From the IMG/VR virus record IMGVR_UViG_3300025151_000226, positions 1 through 27,753 of that record: DNA of 27,753 nt. The stretch is one strand, 5' to 3'. The stretch comes from a virus. Positions 12,982 through 22,127 of this stretch are shown here, in pieces. Under the pieces are notes generated by a model. The model did no database searches, was not told the DNA's origin, and was given only the letters and a program-made list of their open reading frames with translations. Position 1 is the stretch's first letter; every line of letters begins with the position of its first letter. The translations under genes and the position numbers were made by a program.

Positions 12982-15900
12982 ATGATTAATGACGTATCAG
13001 GTGGTAGTTATGTAATAACCTCAACTAATAACTTAGCAGATATTAGAAAGTATAATGCTAGTTCATTCTATAACTGGGAACAAGATAATATCCCTATTAA
13101 TGATTTAGAGACAAGAACTAATTCTTTAGGAGCTAACATTGGACTTACAGCTACTGGTATCGCTGGAGCTACTTTAGTTCTTTCATCTGCAGCTGATAAT
13201 GATAATTCCATATATGATGACATTGACGATATTGTTACTCGTATTCCTAAGATATTAACATTTCCACTCTTGGTTGAAATTTGTTCCTATGGAAATTTAG
13301 GAGCTTTAAAATTAGAAGGTATCAGTATTAAAGGTAATGGTTCTTTACAATTTATAAATAGAAATTTCGGACATTCACTACACGGTGATAGTGCTTATGA
13401 AGTGGTGGTAAGTTCTACTGAAGATTTTAATGGCGTGCCTTTTTCAGGTGCTCCAGAAGAACAAGGATGTACTGCATTATCAGCATATCCTGTCTGGGAA
13501 GAAATATCAAACGCATCCAGCACAAGAGCTGAGCTAAATTGCTACAATAAAGATAGCTGGAATCAAAATGTTAGATTGTTTGGTCATAAGCACCTTACAA
13601 CTGATGCTACTTTTCAGGAACCTATATTTTGGTGTTCTGGGACTAGGGATTTTATAGGTTCCAATACAAATGCAGATTATGTTTTTAGCGGTAACGTATA
13701 TGATAACAGTTATGATGTTACGGTATCGGCTGATGCTAATCCTTTAGAGTATAACACTGCAGGTCAAATACCTATGAGAAAAAATGCATACCTAAGCACT
13801 ATGGCAGCTGGGAACGCCGCTTCCCCATTATACGCTTACGGAAATTATTTTACAAGTGTTAAAGTAGAGAATTGTCACGGGGAGCAAGTACAATTAAAAA
13901 ATATTTGTGTCGATGGTGTAAGCGCTACCGCAGGAGATATTTATTCACATGATAACTCTATAGGGTTTGATATACAAAACTCTGATGTAGTTCTTACTTC
14001 ATGTGCTTCATTTAGAAATAGAGACGCTGGATTTAAAATTAAAAACTCTAATGTAGATATTGAGGGAGGTATAATCGGATATAGGAATTATCAAGTTGAT
14101 GGTTCAGCCGTTGTTGCGGAATTAGGATACAGACCTAGTACTGGATTTGAAGCAACTGATATGTGGGATTTAGCTTCTAACGGAAATGGGTTTGAAGCTT
14201 CAAGGTCTACTATTAATTTTGATGAAACTGGTAGTCTTACTAATGCCTCTGGAACATCTAAATTAGGAAAACATGGATTTATCATGGCATCCAACGGAGG
14301 TAATGGATGGCTTTTTGATAAGTGTAAAATTAATGGAGGTGTTGGAGGACATAACAGTGAAGAAGAGCAAGGAGCTGGTACTGAAGATTATCAAACAACT
14401 CAACTTATCGCAGCCTTTAATAAGGTTAATGGATTTAAAGTTGACAGCTCACAGGTAAAATATCAAGGAATTTTAAGAGCCCAAGGAAATGAAATACATG
14501 GAATTGAAGCTAATAATTCCAGAGTAGCATCCATGGGATTAGTTTCAGAAGTTAATGGAAACACCGGATTTAAATTAGATTCTTCGGAATACATTTATAA
14601 TATGGGAGCTAGTAAATACACCACTGCTTATGATTTATCTCTATCTTCTTGGCATAGTCGAGCAGGTCACTCTAGAGTTATTCCTGCTGTATTGTTAGAT
14701 AGGAATAGTGTTCAAAATTTAACTGTTACAAATAATTCTAAATTTTCAGACAATAGACTTACAAACTCAGGTAGAAGAGCTGGGTTAATAGGCGGTAGAT
14801 ATTTAACTAACGCAAGTCAAAGAACTAATGCTATGCTTGCCAGTAATGGCACCATTGTAGACTCTAACAACGCTAGTGAGTTTGAAAAAGGAAACCTTCC
14901 TTTAATATCAATATCTAATAACTCATACGCTAGGCTTTTAGGGTTAGCAGCTTTAGGAGATACTTTTGACGGAGCCGGAGGTAATTCAGTGGTTCCATCA
15001 GGTTCTGTTAAAGGTAGAGCTTTAAGTGTAACCGATAATTCTAAAGTAGACTTATATGGAACATCCGCATATAATACTAATATCGGAATGTATCAATATA
15101 TAAATACTCTTTCTGAATTAAAGACCACTTGGACTAAGTCAGCAATTTACGCAGGTCAAAACTCTAAAATTAGAATTTCTGGACCTACAAAAATTTCAAA
15201 CTTTGGTGTAGCAGCTTTGGCTGAGGATAACTCTAAAATTGAAATAGGTCCCGCATTGTCAGAGCTAGGAACGCCTGATACCTCTTTAGACCCTACTGAT
15301 GTAAGTGGTCATACAATGGTTGAGTTACATGCTACTAGAGCTTGTTTGGTCGCTAATAATAAATCTACTTTAGAGATGGTTAAATGTGGAGCAGATATAG
15401 GCACCCCTGACGGTACTTGGGTTTCTAGTATAAACTCTGTGGACGCTGATTTAGCTACTAGTGCATATCATACAAGTTCTTTTATCCAGTTTTATCCAAA
15501 CGGATTTACTGCAGAACTTGCAAATCCAGGAGGAGGGAGATACGTAGACCAAAACTTCTTCGCAGCTGTAAGTTCTATAGCAGGAGCGAGAAACAGACAG
15601 CTACCAGGGTTCGATGAATTTGTAGACCCTAATAGATTTAATCACAATTCAAACTCAACAGGTGGAATGTGCGTAAGAGCTGTTGGAGGAAGTACCGTTA
15701 TTGCTGACCAAGTTAACTTTGAAGTTCATATGCCCGTCGATGACCTTTCTGGAGCGTATTATAATATAGATGGCTCCGCAGCTGAAGGTACCAGCATATA
15801 CACAGGAATGTCCGCATTACCTAATATTAATCAGGCAATGGGCTCAGCCTCAGCACATTATGGAGGCTCTCAAATTTTCATGTGGAATATAGCTGATAAT

Positions 15901-16740
15901 TCTAGGATTAATGCGAGTAATTTGAAAGTTAATGGAGTGGATGGTAGCGCAGCTGGATTCCATGGACCTGCTGGTAGGTGGGGTTCTTTTGCTGCTGGAA
16001 TGGGAAGCGAAGAAAGTTTAGGACCTATAGATTATTATGGAAAGACTGGAGCTTATGGACAGATTTCTCCATCTGGAGATGTCGCTCAACATTACAACCA
16101 TGGACCTTTCCGACTTATGACCGGAATCAGCGCAGATTTGATGACATACTCAGAAGGTGTGGAAGCTTTAGACGGTTTAAGTTATGTACCAATCATGTCA
16201 GCCTCAGGTATTGGCGGAAACGCAATAGCTCAGTTAAACGCTCAAGGTTACCCAGGTCCTGGTTATACAGCTAGTTCTATATATGCTTCTGACCATAGGC
16301 AACATTCATTAATAGAAACTCAAACTCAATCTAGCGCACCTAATTATGGTCAACCTATATTTGGTGCGAGAGGGGGAGCTGATAGTGGAAATGTTACAGG
16401 TGGGAACACTAGACACTTAATTGGAAATGCTATGATACAAGATGTATTTGGATTTGATGGTGATGGAGCCGCTGAGCATACATTCCCTAATATTCCAATC
16501 CCTCCAATCCATATGGAATGGCAAGGATACCTAAGGAATTTCGTAGACGAATCAGCTGCTGACGTTTTTGCTAATGCTAAACATGGAGCTAGCAAAATGA
16601 TTAAACTTTGTTCTATCTATAGGTCTACTATCGACCCAACGAGAGGTGGAGAAGGTAGAGATGGAAACCCAGAAGAAGATTACGCATTTGGACGAGGAGT
16701 TCGTTCACTTAACATATTTGACCTTGATAAATTAGTATAA
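12982..16740 (+). CDS. Large tail fibre/tailspike with right-handed beta-helix
   Basis: This 1252-aa protein is the largest in the window. Residues about 21-42 hold an N-terminal anchor motif ('IRKYNASSFYNWEQDNIPIN') shared with the next gene. From about residue 325 to 975 a short element, (D/N)-(N/S)-S-x-(V/I) followed by strand residues, recurs at least 12 times, often 21-24 residues apart ('IEANNSRVASMG', 'VTDNSKVDLYG', 'AEDNSKIEIG'). That spacing and the stacked Asn/Ser fit a parallel right-handed beta-helix of pectate-lyase/tailspike type. The C-terminal about 250 residues are Gly-rich and non-repetitive, possibly the receptor-binding or trimerising end. No catalytic pair can be assigned by eye, so glycan cleavage is possible but unproven. 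It probably sets host range. Confidence 0.75.
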   Translation: MINDVSGGSYVITSTNNLADIRKYNASSFYNWEQDNIPINDLETRTNSLGANIGLTATGIAGATLVLSSAADNDNSIYDDIDDIVTRIPKILTFPLLVEICSYGNLGALKLEGISIKGNGSLQFINRNFGHSLHGDSAYEVVVSSTEDFNGVPFSGAPEEQGCTALSAYPVWEEISNASSTRAELNCYNKDSWNQNVRLFGHKHLTTDATFQEPIFWCSGTRDFIGSNTNADYVFSGNVYDNSYDVTVSADANPLEYNTAGQIPMRKNAYLSTMAAGNAASPLYAYGNYFTSVKVENCHGEQVQLKNICVDGVSATAGDIYSHDNSIGFDIQNSDVVLTSCASFRNRDAGFKIKNSNVDIEGGIIGYRNYQVDGSAVVAELGYRPSTGFEATDMWDLASNGNGFEASRSTINFDETGSLTNASGTSKLGKHGFIMASNGGNGWLFDKCKINGGVGGHNSEEEQGAGTEDYQTTQLIAAFNKVNGFKVDSSQVKYQGILRAQGNEIHGIEANNSRVASMGLVSEVNGNTGFKLDSSEYIYNMGASKYTTAYDLSLSSWHSRAGHSRVIPAVLLDRNSVQNLTVTNNSKFSDNRLTNSGRRAGLIGGRYLTNASQRTNAMLASNGTIVDSNNASEFEKGNLPLISISNNSYARLLGLAALGDTFDGAGGNSVVPSGSVKGRALSVTDNSKVDLYGTSAYNTNIGMYQYINTLSELKTTWTKSAIYAGQNSKIRISGPTKISNFGVAALAEDNSKIEIGPALSELGTPDTSLDPTDVSGHTMVELHATRACLVANNKSTLEMVKCGADIGTPDGTWVSSINSVDADLATSAYHTSSFIQFYPNGFTAELANPGGGRYVDQNFFAAVSSIAGARNRQLPGFDEFVDPNRFNHNSNSTGGMCVRAVGGSTVIADQVNFEVHMPVDDLSGAYYNIDGSAAEGTSIYTGMSALPNINQAMGSASAHYGGSQIFMWNIADNSRINASNLKVNGVDGSAAGFHGPAGRWGSFAAGMGSEESLGPIDYYGKTGAYGQISPSGDVAQHYNHGPFRLMTGISADLMTYSEGVEALDGLSYVPIMSASGIGGNAIAQLNAQGYPGPGYTASSIYASDHRQHSLIETQTQSSAPNYGQPIFGARGGADSGNVTGGNTRHLIGNAMIQDVFGFDGDGAAEHTFPNIPIPPIHMEWQGYLRNFVDESAADVFANAKHGASKMIKLCSIYRSTIDPTRGGEGRDGNPEEDYAFGRGVRSLNIFDLDKLV

Positions 16741-17558
16741 TGGTAGTAAACGACATAAAAGAAAATATTAGATTTTATAAAGCAAATGACCCGTATTTTT
16801 ACGAGGTTGATAACCTTCCTTTGATTGATTTGTTAAATAACGATAAGATTTTAAGAGATGAAATTAATTTAATTTTAGATTCAACAGCTGCTTACGTTAC
16901 AGAAAGTTCTGTAGACACTACCGTTCAAGAAGCTATAGGAGATGCTACTAAAGTAGATATTGATAATACAGATGGAAGTGTAGACCATACTAATGTTATT
17001 TCTTGGATAGAAGCTCAAGAGTATGGAGGGAAAACTATTACTGGAGCTACTGATACTGCTATTGATAATCCTAGCGATGGAGATACTTTAGTATATTCAG
17101 ACGCTACAGGAAAATGGGGTTTAGGGGCTAACCTGATAAATCAACAAAAAGAAATAACAGTTTCTGAGGTAGTAACTTTTGATAGATTAGGTAAATTAGG
17201 TATGGATATCAATACTGATTTGAAAATAAATAGTACGAAAATAGAAAATTTTCTAGGAGTTGGTGCAGGAACTTTAAGCGGTATTACCCATTATATTGTA
17301 AGAGCTGGTATGAACAATGCCACTGGTACATCTAAAATGATGTATCAAGGTGGAGATAAGACAGATAAAACCACTTGGTTGAGAACTTCAGGAGGTATTG
17401 GCAAAGGGGAAACTTATGTAGAAAATCACGGTATTATTGGAGCACGTACAGACCCTACCGAAGATACAAGACTGTATAGGGAAAATGCTGGCACTGCTAA
17501 GTACGCTGAAGTTTTAGGATACATAATAAATCATAAGATAAAAGCTGTTCTAGCATAA
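16740..17558 (+). CDS. Short tail fibre protein sharing the N-terminal anchor motif
   Basis: This 272-aa protein starts with 'IRFYKANDPYFYEVDNLPLI' (residues 10-29), which lines up with residues 21-39 of the large fibre just upstream (Ile-Arg, Tyr, Ala, an acidic-Asp-Asn-Ile/Leu-Pro core). The same kind of opening is common in fibre and baseplate proteins of T4-like marine phages and probably docks to the baseplate. The rest has a helical or coiled stretch (about 30-75), then strands with Gly/Thr turns, and a beta-rich end containing 'THYIVRAGMNNATGTSKMMY'. There is no lectin or enzyme motif I recognise. Its start overlaps the upstream stop by one base. It may be a short fibre or a connector for the long one. 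Confidence 0.6.
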   Translation: MVVNDIKENIRFYKANDPYFYEVDNLPLIDLLNNDKILRDEINLILDSTAAYVTESSVDTTVQEAIGDATKVDIDNTDGSVDHTNVISWIEAQEYGGKTITGATDTAIDNPSDGDTLVYSDATGKWGLGANLINQQKEITVSEVVTFDRLGKLGMDINTDLKINSTKIENFLGVGAGTLSGITHYIVRAGMNNATGTSKMMYQGGDKTDKTTWLRTSGGIGKGETYVENHGIIGARTDPTEDTRLYRENAGTAKYAEVLGYIINHKIKAVLA

Positions 17559-17562
17559 AGAT

Positions 17563-18021
17563 ATGTATAAATTTTTATTTTTTTTACCTTTACTATTGTC
17601 TTGTTCAACTTTAGCACCAATAGTAGGAGGAGCAGCAGGAGCTGCAGCTGGCTCTTTAGGAGGTCCAGCAACCGCAGCTATTGGTGGAGCAGCAGGTGTA
17701 GCGGGAGCTCAAATGATGTTTCCAAATGAATCAGTAGACCCTACAGTTGCATTAGCAGCAGCCCAAGCAGGTAAACCAGCTCCAGGAACAGTAGCATCCA
17801 CGATACATGAAACTAAAGGACTTGTTTTTGAATTAGGTTGGATGTATCTATTAATTTTTGTATTAGTTCCTCTTTTAACTAAGAGAGGTAGAACTTGGAT
17901 TAAGAAGTTTAGTGAAATACATAATACAGTCTCTCAAAAAGATATAGAAGAAAGAGATTCTCAACAAGATGACAGACTAAATAAACTAGAGGAGAAATTA
18001 CACACACTCCTAAATAAATAA
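17563..18021 (+). CDS. Predicted lipoprotein with glycine-zipper and transmembrane segment
   Basis: This 152-aa protein starts with a lipoprotein signal: one basic residue (Lys3), a hydrophobic core, and the lipobox L-L-S-C with Cys14, followed by Ser rather than Asp. Residues 19-51 are a Gly/Ala-rich glycine-zipper-like stretch. A second hydrophobic helix (about 89-106, 'LGWMYLLIFVLVPLL') is followed by 'KRGRTWIKK', so the C-terminus should be cytoplasmic, ending in a charged coiled coil (120-150). An N-terminal lipid anchor with a downstream inner-membrane helix recalls the topology of unimolecular spanins such as T1 gp11, but the zipper and coiled tail are unlike them. Other options are a holin-like or superinfection-exclusion protein. 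It sits between fibre and head-core genes; no lysis gene is nearby. Coding status is solid; function is not. Confidence 0.65.
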   Translation: MYKFLFFLPLLLSCSTLAPIVGGAAGAAAGSLGGPATAAIGGAAGVAGAQMMFPNESVDPTVALAAAQAGKPAPGTVASTIHETKGLVFELGWMYLLIFVLVPLLTKRGRTWIKKFSEIHNTVSQKDIEERDSQQDDRLNKLEEKLHTLLNK

Positions 18022-18025
18022 TAAA

Positions 18026-18424
18026 ATGAACTTTATAGATTATAATTTTGTTTCAGATGAGGTAGCAAAGAACCTCATGGAATCTTACGGCTACGATGTA
18101 CCTGCTGCAGAAGAAACTCCTGCAGAGGAAGTAATTAGCGAAGATGCTGTAGTAGACCTACCTGATTACGTTTGTGTAGTTAATGAAACTGCATATGCTC
18201 TTTGCGAAGGTGTAGAAGAAGTTGACGGACAACTATTTATTCCTGTAGAAGAAATTTCAGAAGAACTACATGAATCTTTAGCAGATAATGAAACTACTTT
18301 ACTAGAATCTGTAGAGTTTGAAGATGCCTACTACGAGTTCGGAGATATCTTCGAAGATACTGAAACTAATGAATTGTACGTTGCTATTAACGAAACAGTA
18401 GCTGACGATTCAGAAGAAGAGTAA
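18026..18424 (+). CDS. Acidic prohead core protein, gp67-like
   Basis: This 132-aa protein is very acidic, with Glu/Asp runs such as 'AAEETPAEEVISED' and a C-terminal 'DDSEEE', and no membrane segment. T4 gp67 is a small acidic prohead core component (80 aa) encoded just before gp68 and gp21; this gene occupies the equivalent slot, two genes before gp21. Several L/I-x-E sites, the cleavage pattern of T4-type prohead proteases, are present, as expected for a core protein removed during maturation. Sequence identity to gp67 is not evident by eye; the call is by acidity, size and position. There is no Shine-Dalgarno, only an A-rich leader. Confidence 0.55.
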   Translation: MNFIDYNFVSDEVAKNLMESYGYDVPAAEETPAEEVISEDAVVDLPDYVCVVNETAYALCEGVEEVDGQLFIPVEEISEELHESLADNETTLLESVEFEDAYYEFGDIFEDTETNELYVAINETVADDSEEE

Positions 18425-18427
18425 ACC

Positions 18428-19273
18428 ATGACTAAAACTGTAATGGAACAAGCGGATGAAATCCTCGCTAACATGGGGATTTCTGATGCAGTTCCATTAT
18501 CGGAGTCAACTACAGAATCTATAACTGCTGTAGGTAAAAACTATGACAGTGAAGAACTCCCTCAAATAGACGACTCTCAAAGACTTGCATTATTAGAAGG
18601 ATGTGGAGCCATCTCAGAAGCCGTTACAGGAGTAGGTTCTATAGGTGTAAACTTAGCAGGTCCTCAAGAAGAAAAACCTAAAAAGAAAAAATTAAACAAA
18701 AAAAAGGTTGAAGAGCATAGTGTAATACAAGGAGCTCCTACTGGTGAAGACGGTAGAAACTTTGACAATGCTTGGAAAGTTTCCGACAAAGATTTGAAGT
18801 TCTTTTCAGGTGTTAATAAAAAATTAAAGGAAGATTGGAGACAGGATGACCCTTTCGCTGATTGGAATGAAGAGGATGATGATGAATATGACGAAGACAA
18901 AGATAAGATAGAAGAAAAATCTCCTGCATGGCAAAGGAAAGAAGGTAAAAGCAAATCAGGAGGATTGAATAGAAAAGGAGTAGCATCTTATAGAGCCGCA
19001 AACCCAGGTTCTAAATTAAAGACTGCTGTAACTACTAAACCATCAAAACTTAAAAAAGGTTCTAAAGCAGCTAATCGTAGGAAAAGTTTCTGTGCCAGAA
19101 TGTCTGGAATGAAAAAAAGAAGAACTTCTGCTAAAACTGCTAGAGACCCTAACAGCCGTATAAACAAGTCTTTACGTAAATGGAACTGCAATGAAAACCA
19201 ATCACCTACAGTAACTAAATTAAATAAAGCTACTGATAAATTTATAAACAACACATTTAAAGGATTATTTTAA
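18428..19273 (+). CDS. Prohead core-like protein fused to basic DUF6321-type C-terminus
   Basis: This 281-aa protein sits in the gp68 slot, directly before gp21. The N-terminal half (1-165) is mixed acidic and basic, with a Lys run (83-93, 'KPKKKKLNKKK') and an acidic run (148-159). Residues about 165-254 are a strongly basic module: 'SPAWQRKEGKSKSGGLNRKG', 'NPGSKLKTAVTTKPSKLKKG', 'RRKSFCARMSGMKKRRTSAK' and 'DPNSRINKSLRKWNC'. I recognise this as the DUF6321 pattern of many marine phage proteins; its function is unsettled, but charge and conserved Cys222 and Cys254 suggest nucleic-acid contact or scaffolding. T4 gp68 is 141 aa, so this is about twice as long. The core role is inferred from position. 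A weak purine-rich site precedes the ATG. Confidence 0.65.
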   Translation: MTKTVMEQADEILANMGISDAVPLSESTTESITAVGKNYDSEELPQIDDSQRLALLEGCGAISEAVTGVGSIGVNLAGPQEEKPKKKKLNKKKVEEHSVIQGAPTGEDGRNFDNAWKVSDKDLKFFSGVNKKLKEDWRQDDPFADWNEEDDDEYDEDKDKIEEKSPAWQRKEGKSKSGGLNRKGVASYRAANPGSKLKTAVTTKPSKLKKGSKAANRRKSFCARMSGMKKRRTSAKTARDPNSRINKSLRKWNCNENQSPTVTKLNKATDKFINNTFKGLF

Positions 19274-19274
19274 C

Positions 19275-19898
19275 ATGTCTAACATACTAAGAGATACGTA
19301 TTCATTTGGAGAACTTCAGATTCTTTCTGAAGGTAAATCTTCTGCAGGTCCTATGGTAGTTCAAGGATTATTCCAAGAGGCTGAGGCTAAGAATGGTAAT
19401 GGTAGAGTTTACTCTAAAACTATCTTAGAAAGAGAAATTAAAAATTTGCAAGAAGGTCCTCTAGTAGAGCGTAGATTAGTTGGAGAGTTAGACCATCCAT
19501 CTAATGAAGTTGTGCATCTAGCAAACGCTTCACATATTGTAACTGGACTTACTATGGAAGGTAATAAAGTTATTGGAACTGCTGAAATATTAAATACACC
19601 TTCGGGTAAAGTTCTACAAGAGCTGTTAAAAGCAGGTGTTAAAATAGGAATATCCTCCAGAGCTGTAGGAGGACTTACATATAACTCTGATAAAGATTGT
19701 TACGATGTTAATGAAAATCTAAGAATGATTACATGGGATATGGTATCTGAACCTTCATGTCATGGAGCTTTTCCTGGGTTGATGAGTGAAAATAAAGTAA
19801 TGACAGAATCTTCTAAACGAATTGCAGAGGATGTAGACCATCTAAGAGCTGAGAGATTGTTTATCCACTCTTTGAAAAAACATTTAAACAAAAAATAA
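19275..19898 (+). CDS. 21: Prohead protease gp21
   Basis: This 207-aa protein (T4 gp21 is 212) has the T4-type prohead protease layout (MEROPS U9/S78 group). 'VQGLFQEAEAKNGNGRVYSK' is near residue 29-48; 'GELDHPS' carries His74, the expected catalytic His (T4 His85); 'VKIGISSRAVGG' carries Ser127/Ser128, the expected catalytic Ser (T4 Ser140). The protease sits inside the prohead and cuts core and capsid proteins at L/I-x-E sites before packaging. The short basic tail 'SLKKHLNKK' may be a self-processed core-binding end. It starts one base after the preceding stop and is followed by a small hairpin and a late promoter for gp22. Confidence 0.95.
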   Translation: MSNILRDTYSFGELQILSEGKSSAGPMVVQGLFQEAEAKNGNGRVYSKTILEREIKNLQEGPLVERRLVGELDHPSNEVVHLANASHIVTGLTMEGNKVIGTAEILNTPSGKVLQELLKAGVKIGISSRAVGGLTYNSDKDCYDVNENLRMITWDMVSEPSCHGAFPGLMSENKVMTESSKRIAEDVDHLRAERLFIHSLKKHLNKK

Positions 19899-19952: not shown

Positions 19953-20528
19953 ATGACCACATTCGAACAAATCGCGAAACTTCTTCCTGAGAATTTTTCT
20001 GAATCAGGATTGGAGGAAATCCAAGCTATCATCGAAGAAACTATCCAAGAGCGTGTCGACGCTGAAGTAAAGTCCTTAGAGGCTAAAGTTGGCGGTTTTA
20101 TGAGAATGAAGCTTAATGAGATGAAAGAGCAAGCCGTAAAAGAACTAGAGAAAGATAACGAAACTTTCCGTGCAGTTAAAATTTACGAAACTCTTAAATC
20201 AGTTATAGCAGAAGATATTGCAACTTCTGACGAAGAAGCAGTAGCTTCTACTTACAAAGCTGATAATGAAAAATTACAAGAGACTGTAAACAACTTAAAT
20301 GATACAATCTCTACCTTAATGACTGAAAATAAAACTTTAGAAGAGTCTGTAATAAATTTGAAAGAAGATGTTCAGACCCTCGATGAGGTATCTAAAGCAC
20401 CTTTCAAGTCATCAGAACAAGCTCTCGTTATAACTAACGAAAGTATCAAAGAGGACTCAACACCCACTTCCGAGGTGATTAATGAGTTTCTTACAGAAGA
20501 CGTAGTCCGTCTTTCACAACTAACCTAA
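19953..20528 (+). CDS. 22: Prohead core scaffold protein gp22
   Basis: This 191-aa protein is Glu/Lys-rich and almost wholly helical, with long coiled-coil stretches (about residues 20-85 and 88-135, 'EKLQETVNNLNDTISTLMTE'), as expected for the main scaffold around which gp23 assembles. T4 gp22 is 269 aa, so this one is short but within the range seen in the wider group. L/I-x-E cleavage sites recur ('IIEE', 'FLTE'), consistent with degradation by gp21. The C-terminal 'INEFLTEDVVRLSQL' is the kind of tail scaffolds use to contact the capsid protein. It lies between gp21 and gp23 as in T4, with its own late-promoter-like box and a partial AGG ribosome site 8 bases before the ATG. Confidence 0.88.
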   Translation: MTTFEQIAKLLPENFSESGLEEIQAIIEETIQERVDAEVKSLEAKVGGFMRMKLNEMKEQAVKELEKDNETFRAVKIYETLKSVIAEDIATSDEEAVASTYKADNEKLQETVNNLNDTISTLMTENKTLEESVINLKEDVQTLDEVSKAPFKSSEQALVITNESIKEDSTPTSEVINEFLTEDVVRLSQLT

Positions 20529-20541
20529 TCTTACCAAAATT

Positions 20542-22050
20542 ATGATTGAAAACAACACTTCAAAAGCTCTCTGTGACAAGTGGGCACCAATTCTAGAAGG
20601 AGTTGAGGATTCGTATACACGTGAGACAACTGCGGTTCTTCTTGAAAACCAAGCTCGCCACGTACTCGCTGAGCAAGCGAAGTCTGGTATGCTAGAGGAA
20701 GCCACAACAGCTGTCGGCAACCTGGGTACTTTCCAAAAATTTGCTTTCCCTCTAGTTCGCCGGGTATTTCCGGAGCTTATTGCCAATAAGGTAGTAGGTG
20801 TACAACCTATGCAAGGTCCAGTTTCTCAAGTATTCTACCTTGGTTATGACCGCACAATTGGTGACGGTGCAACCGAAACTGTATATAGCAAGCACAACCT
20901 AACTTACAAAGGTCTTACGACTTCTGCGTTGGGCAATGTTAGTGGTCTTGACAGCACTCGTTCTCCGGGTACTGTAGACACTTCTGCTATTAACGCTTCA
21001 GGTGGCACTATGGGTCAAAACATTGCTGCTTTCCCTGATACTACAAGTCTTCAACAGTGGGCTACGTCTGCTGGTGAGGGTCTAGGTGTTAGTGGAGCCG
21101 GTAGCACTGGTACAATCCCTGACATCAGCTTCCATATCGAGCAACAAGCTGTGATTGCTAGAACACGTAAATTCCGTGCTCTATGGACAATCGAAGCTTC
21201 TCAAGACTTGAAAGCTTATCACAACCTTGATTTAGAGCGTGAATTGACTGACCTACTAGGTAAGGAAGTTGCTCTTGAGATTGACCGTGAAATTATCGAA
21301 GACCTTCGTTCTATCGCATACGATTCAGTTGACAGCGCTAACAGCTTGTTCAACCGCGCTATGCTTGATAACGCTGGTTCTAACGCAGTACCTACTGAAC
21401 GTAAAGACGGTGGAACTACCGATTACGAATACGGGTTCTCTCCAGATGGAGCTGAAACTCTAGGTGCTAATAAAAACGTAACCTTCGTTGACTTCGCTAG
21501 TACAGCATTATCACTAGCTCCACGTCACGTTGGTGAAGTTTACTCTAACCTCCTTGCTGCAGTTAACTTTGCTGCTCAAGACATCTACAAAACTACTTTC
21601 CGTGGTGCAGGTAACTTTATAATCACTTCTCCAGTTATCGCAGCTATGCTACACTCAGCTGCTAAACTTGAAGGTGGTTTGAGTGCTGAAGAAGCTGGCT
21701 CACTTGGTGCTAATATACAGTACAAAGGTAAATGGGCTGGTATGTACGACGTTTACGTAGACCCGATGTATCCTGAGGATGAAATCATGGTTGGTTACAA
21801 AGGTAACAATGCCATGGAAACTGGTTACGTATATTCACCATATATTCCAATCCAGATGCTACCAACAGTAGTGGACCCTAATAGCTTCCAACCACGTAAA
21901 GGTTTGATTACTCGTTACGGTAAGACTGCTATTTCTCCATCATCTCGCTGGTACCGCATCATTCGTCTAGTTGGTGCTGACAGCCGATACCTAACTTCAC
22001 CGTTCGGTACTATGGGTCAGACATTCGCTAACGCTAACGACGGAAGCTAA
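20542..22050 (+). CDS. 23: Major capsid protein gp23
   Basis: This 502-aa protein (T4 gp23 is 521) has the T4-type capsid sequence: 'LCDKWAPILEG' at the start, 'NLGTFQKFAFPLVRRVFPEL' and 'VGVQPMQGPVSQVFYLGYDR' near 60-98, and a conserved HK97-fold end ('RYGKTAISPSSRWYRIIRLV'). Residues 51-53 (L-E-E) before Ala54 fit the gp21 cleavage motif, so the mature subunit probably starts at Ala54 (T4 cuts after residue 65). Codon use differs from the rest of the window: Arg is mostly CGT/CGC rather than AGA, as in very highly expressed genes. It follows gp22 by 13 bases without a Shine-Dalgarno and is closed by a strong terminator. Confidence 0.97.
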   Translation: MIENNTSKALCDKWAPILEGVEDSYTRETTAVLLENQARHVLAEQAKSGMLEEATTAVGNLGTFQKFAFPLVRRVFPELIANKVVGVQPMQGPVSQVFYLGYDRTIGDGATETVYSKHNLTYKGLTTSALGNVSGLDSTRSPGTVDTSAINASGGTMGQNIAAFPDTTSLQQWATSAGEGLGVSGAGSTGTIPDISFHIEQQAVIARTRKFRALWTIEASQDLKAYHNLDLERELTDLLGKEVALEIDREIIEDLRSIAYDSVDSANSLFNRAMLDNAGSNAVPTERKDGGTTDYEYGFSPDGAETLGANKNVTFVDFASTALSLAPRHVGEVYSNLLAAVNFAAQDIYKTTFRGAGNFIITSPVIAAMLHSAAKLEGGLSAEEAGSLGANIQYKGKWAGMYDVYVDPMYPEDEIMVGYKGNNAMETGYVYSPYIPIQMLPTVVDPNSFQPRKGLITRYGKTAISPSSRWYRIIRLVGADSRYLTSPFGTMGQTFANANDGS

Positions 22051-22103: not shown

Positions 22104-22127
22104 GCTATATAATATGAAGATACGGAA

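Follow-up and report, generated by a model that had tools for sequence, protein, structure and literature searches.

The locus and the predicted architecture of protein A

The window analyzed here, the whole stretch of 27,753 nucleotides, represents a fragment of 27.7 kb from an uncultured T4-like virus deposited in IMG/VR. On its plus strand, baseplate and fibre genes are followed by the gene of protein A, the subject of this study, and then by genes for an acidic protein, a DUF6321 protein, gp21, a gp22-like scaffold, gp23, a neck protein, and the tail sheath and tail tube (Table 1). The gp22, sheath, tube, and baseplate assignments come from position and reading of the sequences. The gp23 of the window is ∼31% identical to that of the best cultured phages. 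The fibre-type gene preceding A gave no family match in Pfam and other family searches. Two successive fibre proteins (window 12982-17558) carry a common N-terminal motif, FYNWEQDNIPINDLETR in one and PYFYEVDNLPLIDLLNND in the other, which recurs in the fibre genes of relatives and is perhaps a docking motif. Because only 4 nt separate A from the last fibre gene and again from the next gene, A is very probably cotranscribed with the flanking virion genes. No endolysin or holin gene lies next to A in the window.

Protein A begins with MYKFLFFLPLLLSCSTLAP, and its lipobox LLSC with Cys14 was called by motif. The transmembrane helix starts at about residue 88/91. AlphaFold2 modeling with 33 sequences predicts a hairpin of helices 18-33 and 35-52 (pLDDT of about 73) and further helices at residues 60-69, 78-105, 107-121, and 125-151, with low to moderate confidence. 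The two models made have mean pLDDT values of 62 and 68; the one described here (mean pLDDT of 67.6 and pTM of 0.29) does not give a reliable arrangement of the helices.

Table 1. Coordinates of protein A, its parts, its neighbors, and related features (window coordinates unless a genome or locus is named)
Feature	Position	Strand	Basis or remark
Last tail-fibre-type gene, upstream of A	16740..17558	+	position and shared fibre motif
Lipoprotein A, 152 aa (gene under study)	17563..18021	+	translated ORF; relatives in IMG/VR
Signal peptide of A, residues 1-13	17563..17601	+	MYKFLFFLPLLLS ahead of Cys14; motif only
Lipobox Cys14, invariant	17602..17604	+	1.00 in 33 nonredundant relatives
Glycine-zipper helical hairpin, residues 18-52	17614..17718	+	G26, P35, G41, G45 invariant; AlphaFold2
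Periplasmic linker, residues 53-90	17719..17832	+	38 aa in A, 26-40 across relatives
Transmembrane helix, residues 91-106	17833..17880	+	mean KD 2.22; all relatives 1.66-2.26
Basic stretch, predicted cytosolic side	17881..17925	+	K107, R110, W112 conserved; AlphaFold2 helix 107-121
C-terminal coil, residues 125-151	17935..18015	+	AlphaFold2 pLDDT 82-86; absent in short-tailed relatives
Acidic 132-aa protein, directly downstream of A	18026..18424	+	same slot kept in most relatives
DUF6321 protein, probable prohead core	18428..19273	+	Pfam PF19846, 1.4e-16
Prohead protease gp21	19275..19898	+	Pfam PF03420, 5.5e-21
gp22-like scaffold	19953..20528	+	inferred: between gp21 and gp23, coiled-coil character
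Major capsid protein gp23	20542..22050	+	Pfam PF07068, 6.3e-81
CTATATAATA upstream of tail tube gene	window 26680; G001:13291; G014:63330; G015:25841; G016:65407; G017:13080; G002:10908		
Micro-protein B, examples	L033:8735-8962; L158:3001-3219; also L094, L106, and others		

Conservation and genomic setting

Queries of IMG/VR with protein A itself, alignments, and a distant relative gave about 60 loci, and more were found next to protein B, described below. A nonredundant set of 33 proteins (<85% identity, near copies removed), all on uncultured viral contigs, shows total lengths of 123 to 190 aa. Cys14, G26, P35, G41, G45, G92, P103, R110, and W112 are fully invariant in this set, and G30, G34, V46, Y95, and K107 are invariant or nearly so. 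The lipobox, the glycine zipper, and the membrane helix with positive residues behind it, all claimed in the sequence-only reading, are borne out by these relatives. The LLSC motif is present and its Cys is kept throughout, followed by Ser, Gln, or Gly but never Asp; the zipper measures 36 to 38 residues in all relatives, with its four invariant positions joined by G30 and G34 at frequencies of at least 0.91; and the helix, with a KD of 2.2 in A, is followed by 16 residues carrying a net charge of +3 to +8 in every relative. The zipper hairpin itself is only mildly hydrophobic (KD of 1.0 to 1.4). Values of dN/dS between relatives of 0.06 to 0.20 point to strong purifying selection, and together with the invariant lipobox Cys they indicate that the features of A are more than chance.

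The distance from the Cys to the transmembrane helix, measured on the alignment, is 65 to 80 residues in all relatives (median, 78), whereas the tail behind the helix ranges from 16 aa (L105 and L107) to 81 aa (L035), and L105, L107, L169, and L101 have lost the coil. The unit of lipid anchor, zipper, linker, and transmembrane helix is thus the conserved core, and the coil is an optional addition. A cytosolic coiled coil of ∼43 residues had been proposed for A; a C-terminal helix is indeed predicted there, but the coil is not a family feature. A periplasmic Cys is absent from 32 of the 33 proteins, the exception being L087. Overall, the conservation of A is similar to that of gp21, gp22, and gp23 and exceeds that of the fibres and of the gene that follows A. 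At one locus (L158:3216-3680), A is 71% identical to the A of the window, compared to only 54% for gp21, which hints at transfer of a B-A module between lineages or at unusually strong constraint.

Searches of Pfam, PHROG, NCBIfam, PADLOC, and PDB sequences gave nothing convincing for A, and none of 21 members matched the Pfam glycine-zipper models at an E value of ≤0.1. At the sensitivity used, tblastn found no match in phage and plasmid collections, and A was absent from bacterial genomes (GTDB); it is also absent from Rhodothermus phage RM378, S-CAM4, and Melnitz. Structure searches with the models of A yielded no significant fold match, although the weak PDB list includes the TraT decamer (E value of 5.8, not significant). 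Matches to tape-measure proteins (E values of 0.003 to 0.07) and to NCLDV capsid families are weak and probably compositional, those to tape-measure proteins falling on Gly/Ala-rich stretches only.

In most relatives, as in the window, A follows the last fibre gene and precedes those of the prohead core, in agreement with the earlier placement of A inside the structural operon. This placement does not extend to three genomes. The prohead clusters of G013 and G018 lack A; its gene stands alone ∼11 kb away, encoded on the opposite strand and surrounded by replication-type genes. In G011, where gp23 lies at 64 to 66 kb, A is found ∼60 kb away at 127 kb, amid genes for small and Cys-rich proteins. 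The relocation of A alone in these genomes and its retention there argue that A needs no prohead neighbors in cis.

The surroundings of the relocated gene in G011 (G011:121647-129379, locus L116) include a run of small proteins with a common N-terminal motif similar to M.SYERIY.LLTE. This motif resembles capsid-targeting peptides, which terminate at a cleavage site of the gp21 type, and the small proteins are possible internal head proteins. A reading of the surroundings of A in G011 and G012 as a lysis cassette, with a lysozyme-like open reading frame and a two-transmembrane protein, was rejected: it has no support from Pfam or PHROGs, and the cluster holds many probable capsid-internal proteins. 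The lysozyme-like frame near A in G011 shows a weak two-segment similarity (E value of 2e-4) with no Pfam match. Elsewhere, G001 encodes a secreted destabilase-type lysozyme on the minus strand (G001:56769-57299; Pfam PF05497, 2e-12), a candidate endolysin for these viruses, and G016:1905-2342 appears to encode a further lysozyme-like protein that is exported. The proteins of G011:123544-123930 and G016:4854-5444 are homologous (phmmer, about 1e-15), with a coiled coil and two transmembrane helices, and are possible holins.

The upstream protein B and expression signals

Directly upstream of A, 23 of the 51 distinct loci with enough sequence encode a small protein, B, of 34 to 120 aa with the form MWK.IL..INA.I..NWK and one transmembrane helix; most of these proteins also carry LLSC, similar to a lipobox, and end in an acidic tail. 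The stop codon of B and the start codon of A usually overlap as ATGA, and in several loci B comprises 34 aa and stops right after the helix. G001, G014, and G016 contain both genes, but apart; B was not seen in G011 and G012, nor next to A in the window. Searches including Pfam and PHROGs found no known relatives, and B is a previously unrecognized micro-protein family that may assist A as a holin-like or regulatory partner.

In seven records, the window included, the tail tube gene is preceded at a distance of 21 to 29 nt by the motif CTATATAATA, which occurs again at window position 22105, 31 nt upstream of a neck gene. Further copies lie upstream of A in G011 and of B in G001, G016, and G005. 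Its genome-wide counts are not clearly above Markov expectation. These positions are at most suggestive of late expression, and the motif is a candidate late promoter unlike the T4 late promoter TATAAATA, for which no pattern was found.

Possible roles of A at the host envelope

The best reading of A, to which we give an even chance, is that of an analogue, not a proven member, of the unimolecular spanins (u-spanins), bridging both host membranes and helping to breach the outer membrane at lysis. This reading draws on the invariant core in 33 relatives under strong purifying selection and on the nearly fixed distance between Cys and transmembrane helix, close to the 85 residues of T1 gp11, in contrast to the variable tail. 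The periplasm-spanning, u-spanin-like topology suggested earlier is backed by the same conservation and spacing. Of the two features then held atypical of spanins, the coil proves dispensable in relatives, and the invariant glycine zipper stays atypical. The lack of a periplasmic Cys in 32 of 33 proteins agrees with all 58 catalogued u-spanins (PMC6139136). The relocation of the gene by itself, away from the prohead genes, and its retention are what a stand-alone function would lead one to expect. The timing of lysis fits a gene placed directly after the last fibre gene and probably cotranscribed with virion genes, and the candidate late motif CTATATAATA ahead of A or B in four genomes adds to this. 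The B-A pair also has a parallel in T1, where a one-transmembrane holin and a u-spanin share a cassette.

In the mechanism proposed, signal peptidase II and the Lol pathway would place the lipidated N terminus of A in the outer membrane, with the C-terminal helix remaining in the inner membrane and the tail in the cytosol. The glycine-zipper hairpins would pack together and insert into, or lie on, the outer membrane, comparable to helical parts of other outer membrane lipoproteins. Once the endolysin cuts the peptidoglycan, the oligomers of A could pull the two membranes toward each other and thereby disrupt the outer membrane. A more far-reaching version, which we regard as unlikely, combines A and B in a new two-gene trans-envelope machine unlike both spanin classes, in which glycine-zipper lipoprotein oligomers of the outer membrane, firmly connected with the inner membrane through the C-terminal helix of A itself, are triggered by B.

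Several points speak against the spanin-like reading. A has no sequence similarity to gp11, and its periplasmic part is predicted to be helical instead of mainly beta; if the hairpin is inserted in the membrane, only a short stretch of 26 to 40 residues is left to cross the periplasm. The conservation of A, equal to that of gp21 and gp23, also contrasts with the great diversity usual among spanins. Furthermore, no endolysin or holin adjoins A in the window, and CTATATAATA is not enriched over chance genome-wide.

Four less probable explanations compete with this reading and rank in the order superinfection exclusion, head-assembly tether, pore, and virion component. The foremost, itself improbable, describes A as a superinfection-exclusion or envelope-modifying glycine-zipper lipoprotein oligomer that blocks the entry of a second phage. 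A lipoprotein with an oligomerizing hairpin able to insert into the outer membrane would suit this role, and the TraT decamer of the nonsignificant fold list is an outer membrane helical barrel (PMC11733297). However, A is found within the late structural genes or downstream of a late-type motif and not with early genes, it has no PADLOC match, and an inner membrane helix and a conserved cytosolic basic motif are needless for an exclusion protein of the outer membrane. Prohead initiation in T4 is membrane bound, and A could be a membrane tether for head assembly, its cytosolic basic and coil part anchoring the portal initiation complex or the prohead core to the inner membrane. In most relatives the gene directly precedes those of the prohead core, protease, scaffold, and capsid, and its conservation is about equal to theirs, as would fit such a tether. 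The tether is nevertheless improbable, given the prohead genes of G011, G013, and G018 that lack a neighboring A and the four relatives that lack the coil; lipidation and the fixed periplasmic zipper would be left unexplained.

Glycine zippers are a classic helix-packing motif, and together with the one-transmembrane protein B, encoded just upstream in 23 loci and mostly overlapping as ATGA, they bring to mind a holin-like pore, in which the lipid anchor, the hairpin, and the transmembrane helix of A all lie in the inner membrane and form a hole with B. In Escherichia coli, an Asp after the lipobox Cys retains lipoproteins in the inner membrane; the Ser, Gln, or Gly of the A proteins and the mild hydrophobicity of the hairpin make a pore quite unlikely. 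The least probable rival, to be considered very unlikely, is a virion or DNA entry component carried in the particle and acting on the envelope of the next host. A is encoded among virion genes and has tape-measure matches, yet these are driven by composition, and a lipoprotein signal would send A to the envelope of the producing cell.

Comparison with known systems

The spanin-like reading is best measured against the u-spanin gp11 of phage T1 (PMC6139136), the only u-spanin compared. Like A, gp11 has an N-terminal lipobox, a C-terminal transmembrane helix with aromatic residues at its start, and no periplasmic Cys, and it is of similar length, 133 aa compared to 123 to 190 aa. Its Cys22 is 85 residues from the best transmembrane window (residues 107-125), compared to 65 to 80 residues in the relatives of A, and its tail comprises 8 residues. 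No homology was detected between the two proteins (BLAST E value of 14; hhalign probability of 3%). In contrast to gp11, A shows an invariant glycine-zipper hairpin, a longer and variable cytosolic tail, and a periplasmic part predicted to be helical, with low to moderate confidence, where mainly beta structure is predicted for gp11. Because of the helical zipper and the lack of an evident lysis cassette, A is not filed as a member of the u-spanins, although lysis genes of T4-like phages are not clustered (PMC6139136). The T1 cassette, with its one-transmembrane holin and u-spanin, is comparable to B and A.

The overlap of the lipoprotein gene A with the upstream one-transmembrane gene B also recalls the i-spanin/o-spanin pairs of the two-component Rz/Rz1 type. 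Unlike these, A has its own inner membrane helix, and the minimal B of 34 aa has no periplasmic domain; ending after its helix in several loci, B does not show the transmembrane helix plus periplasmic coiled-coil domain of i-spanins.

The glycine-zipper outer membrane lipoproteins of the 17-kDa antigen/SlyB type have a lipid-modified Cys followed by a glycine-zipper hairpin, an arrangement that A shares, its lipidation being predicted. These lipoproteins are not known to have an inner membrane helix, in contrast to A, which for its part has no Pfam glycine-zipper match. The T5 lipoprotein Llp and plasmid TraT achieve exclusion by means other than the glycine-zipper oligomer envisaged for A. 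TraT, a lipidated protein whose helices can assemble into a barrel in the outer membrane (PMC11733297), resembles the proposed state of A, a lipoprotein oligomer with helices inserted in that membrane, but differs in its beta-sandwich domain and the absence of an inner membrane helix. For marine T4-like phages without a close cultured member, A is a concrete and testable candidate for the opening of the host envelope. If the spanin-like reading is true, A would represent a third design of phage outer membrane disruptor, built on a glycine-zipper hairpin and accompanied by an unrecognized micro-protein partner.
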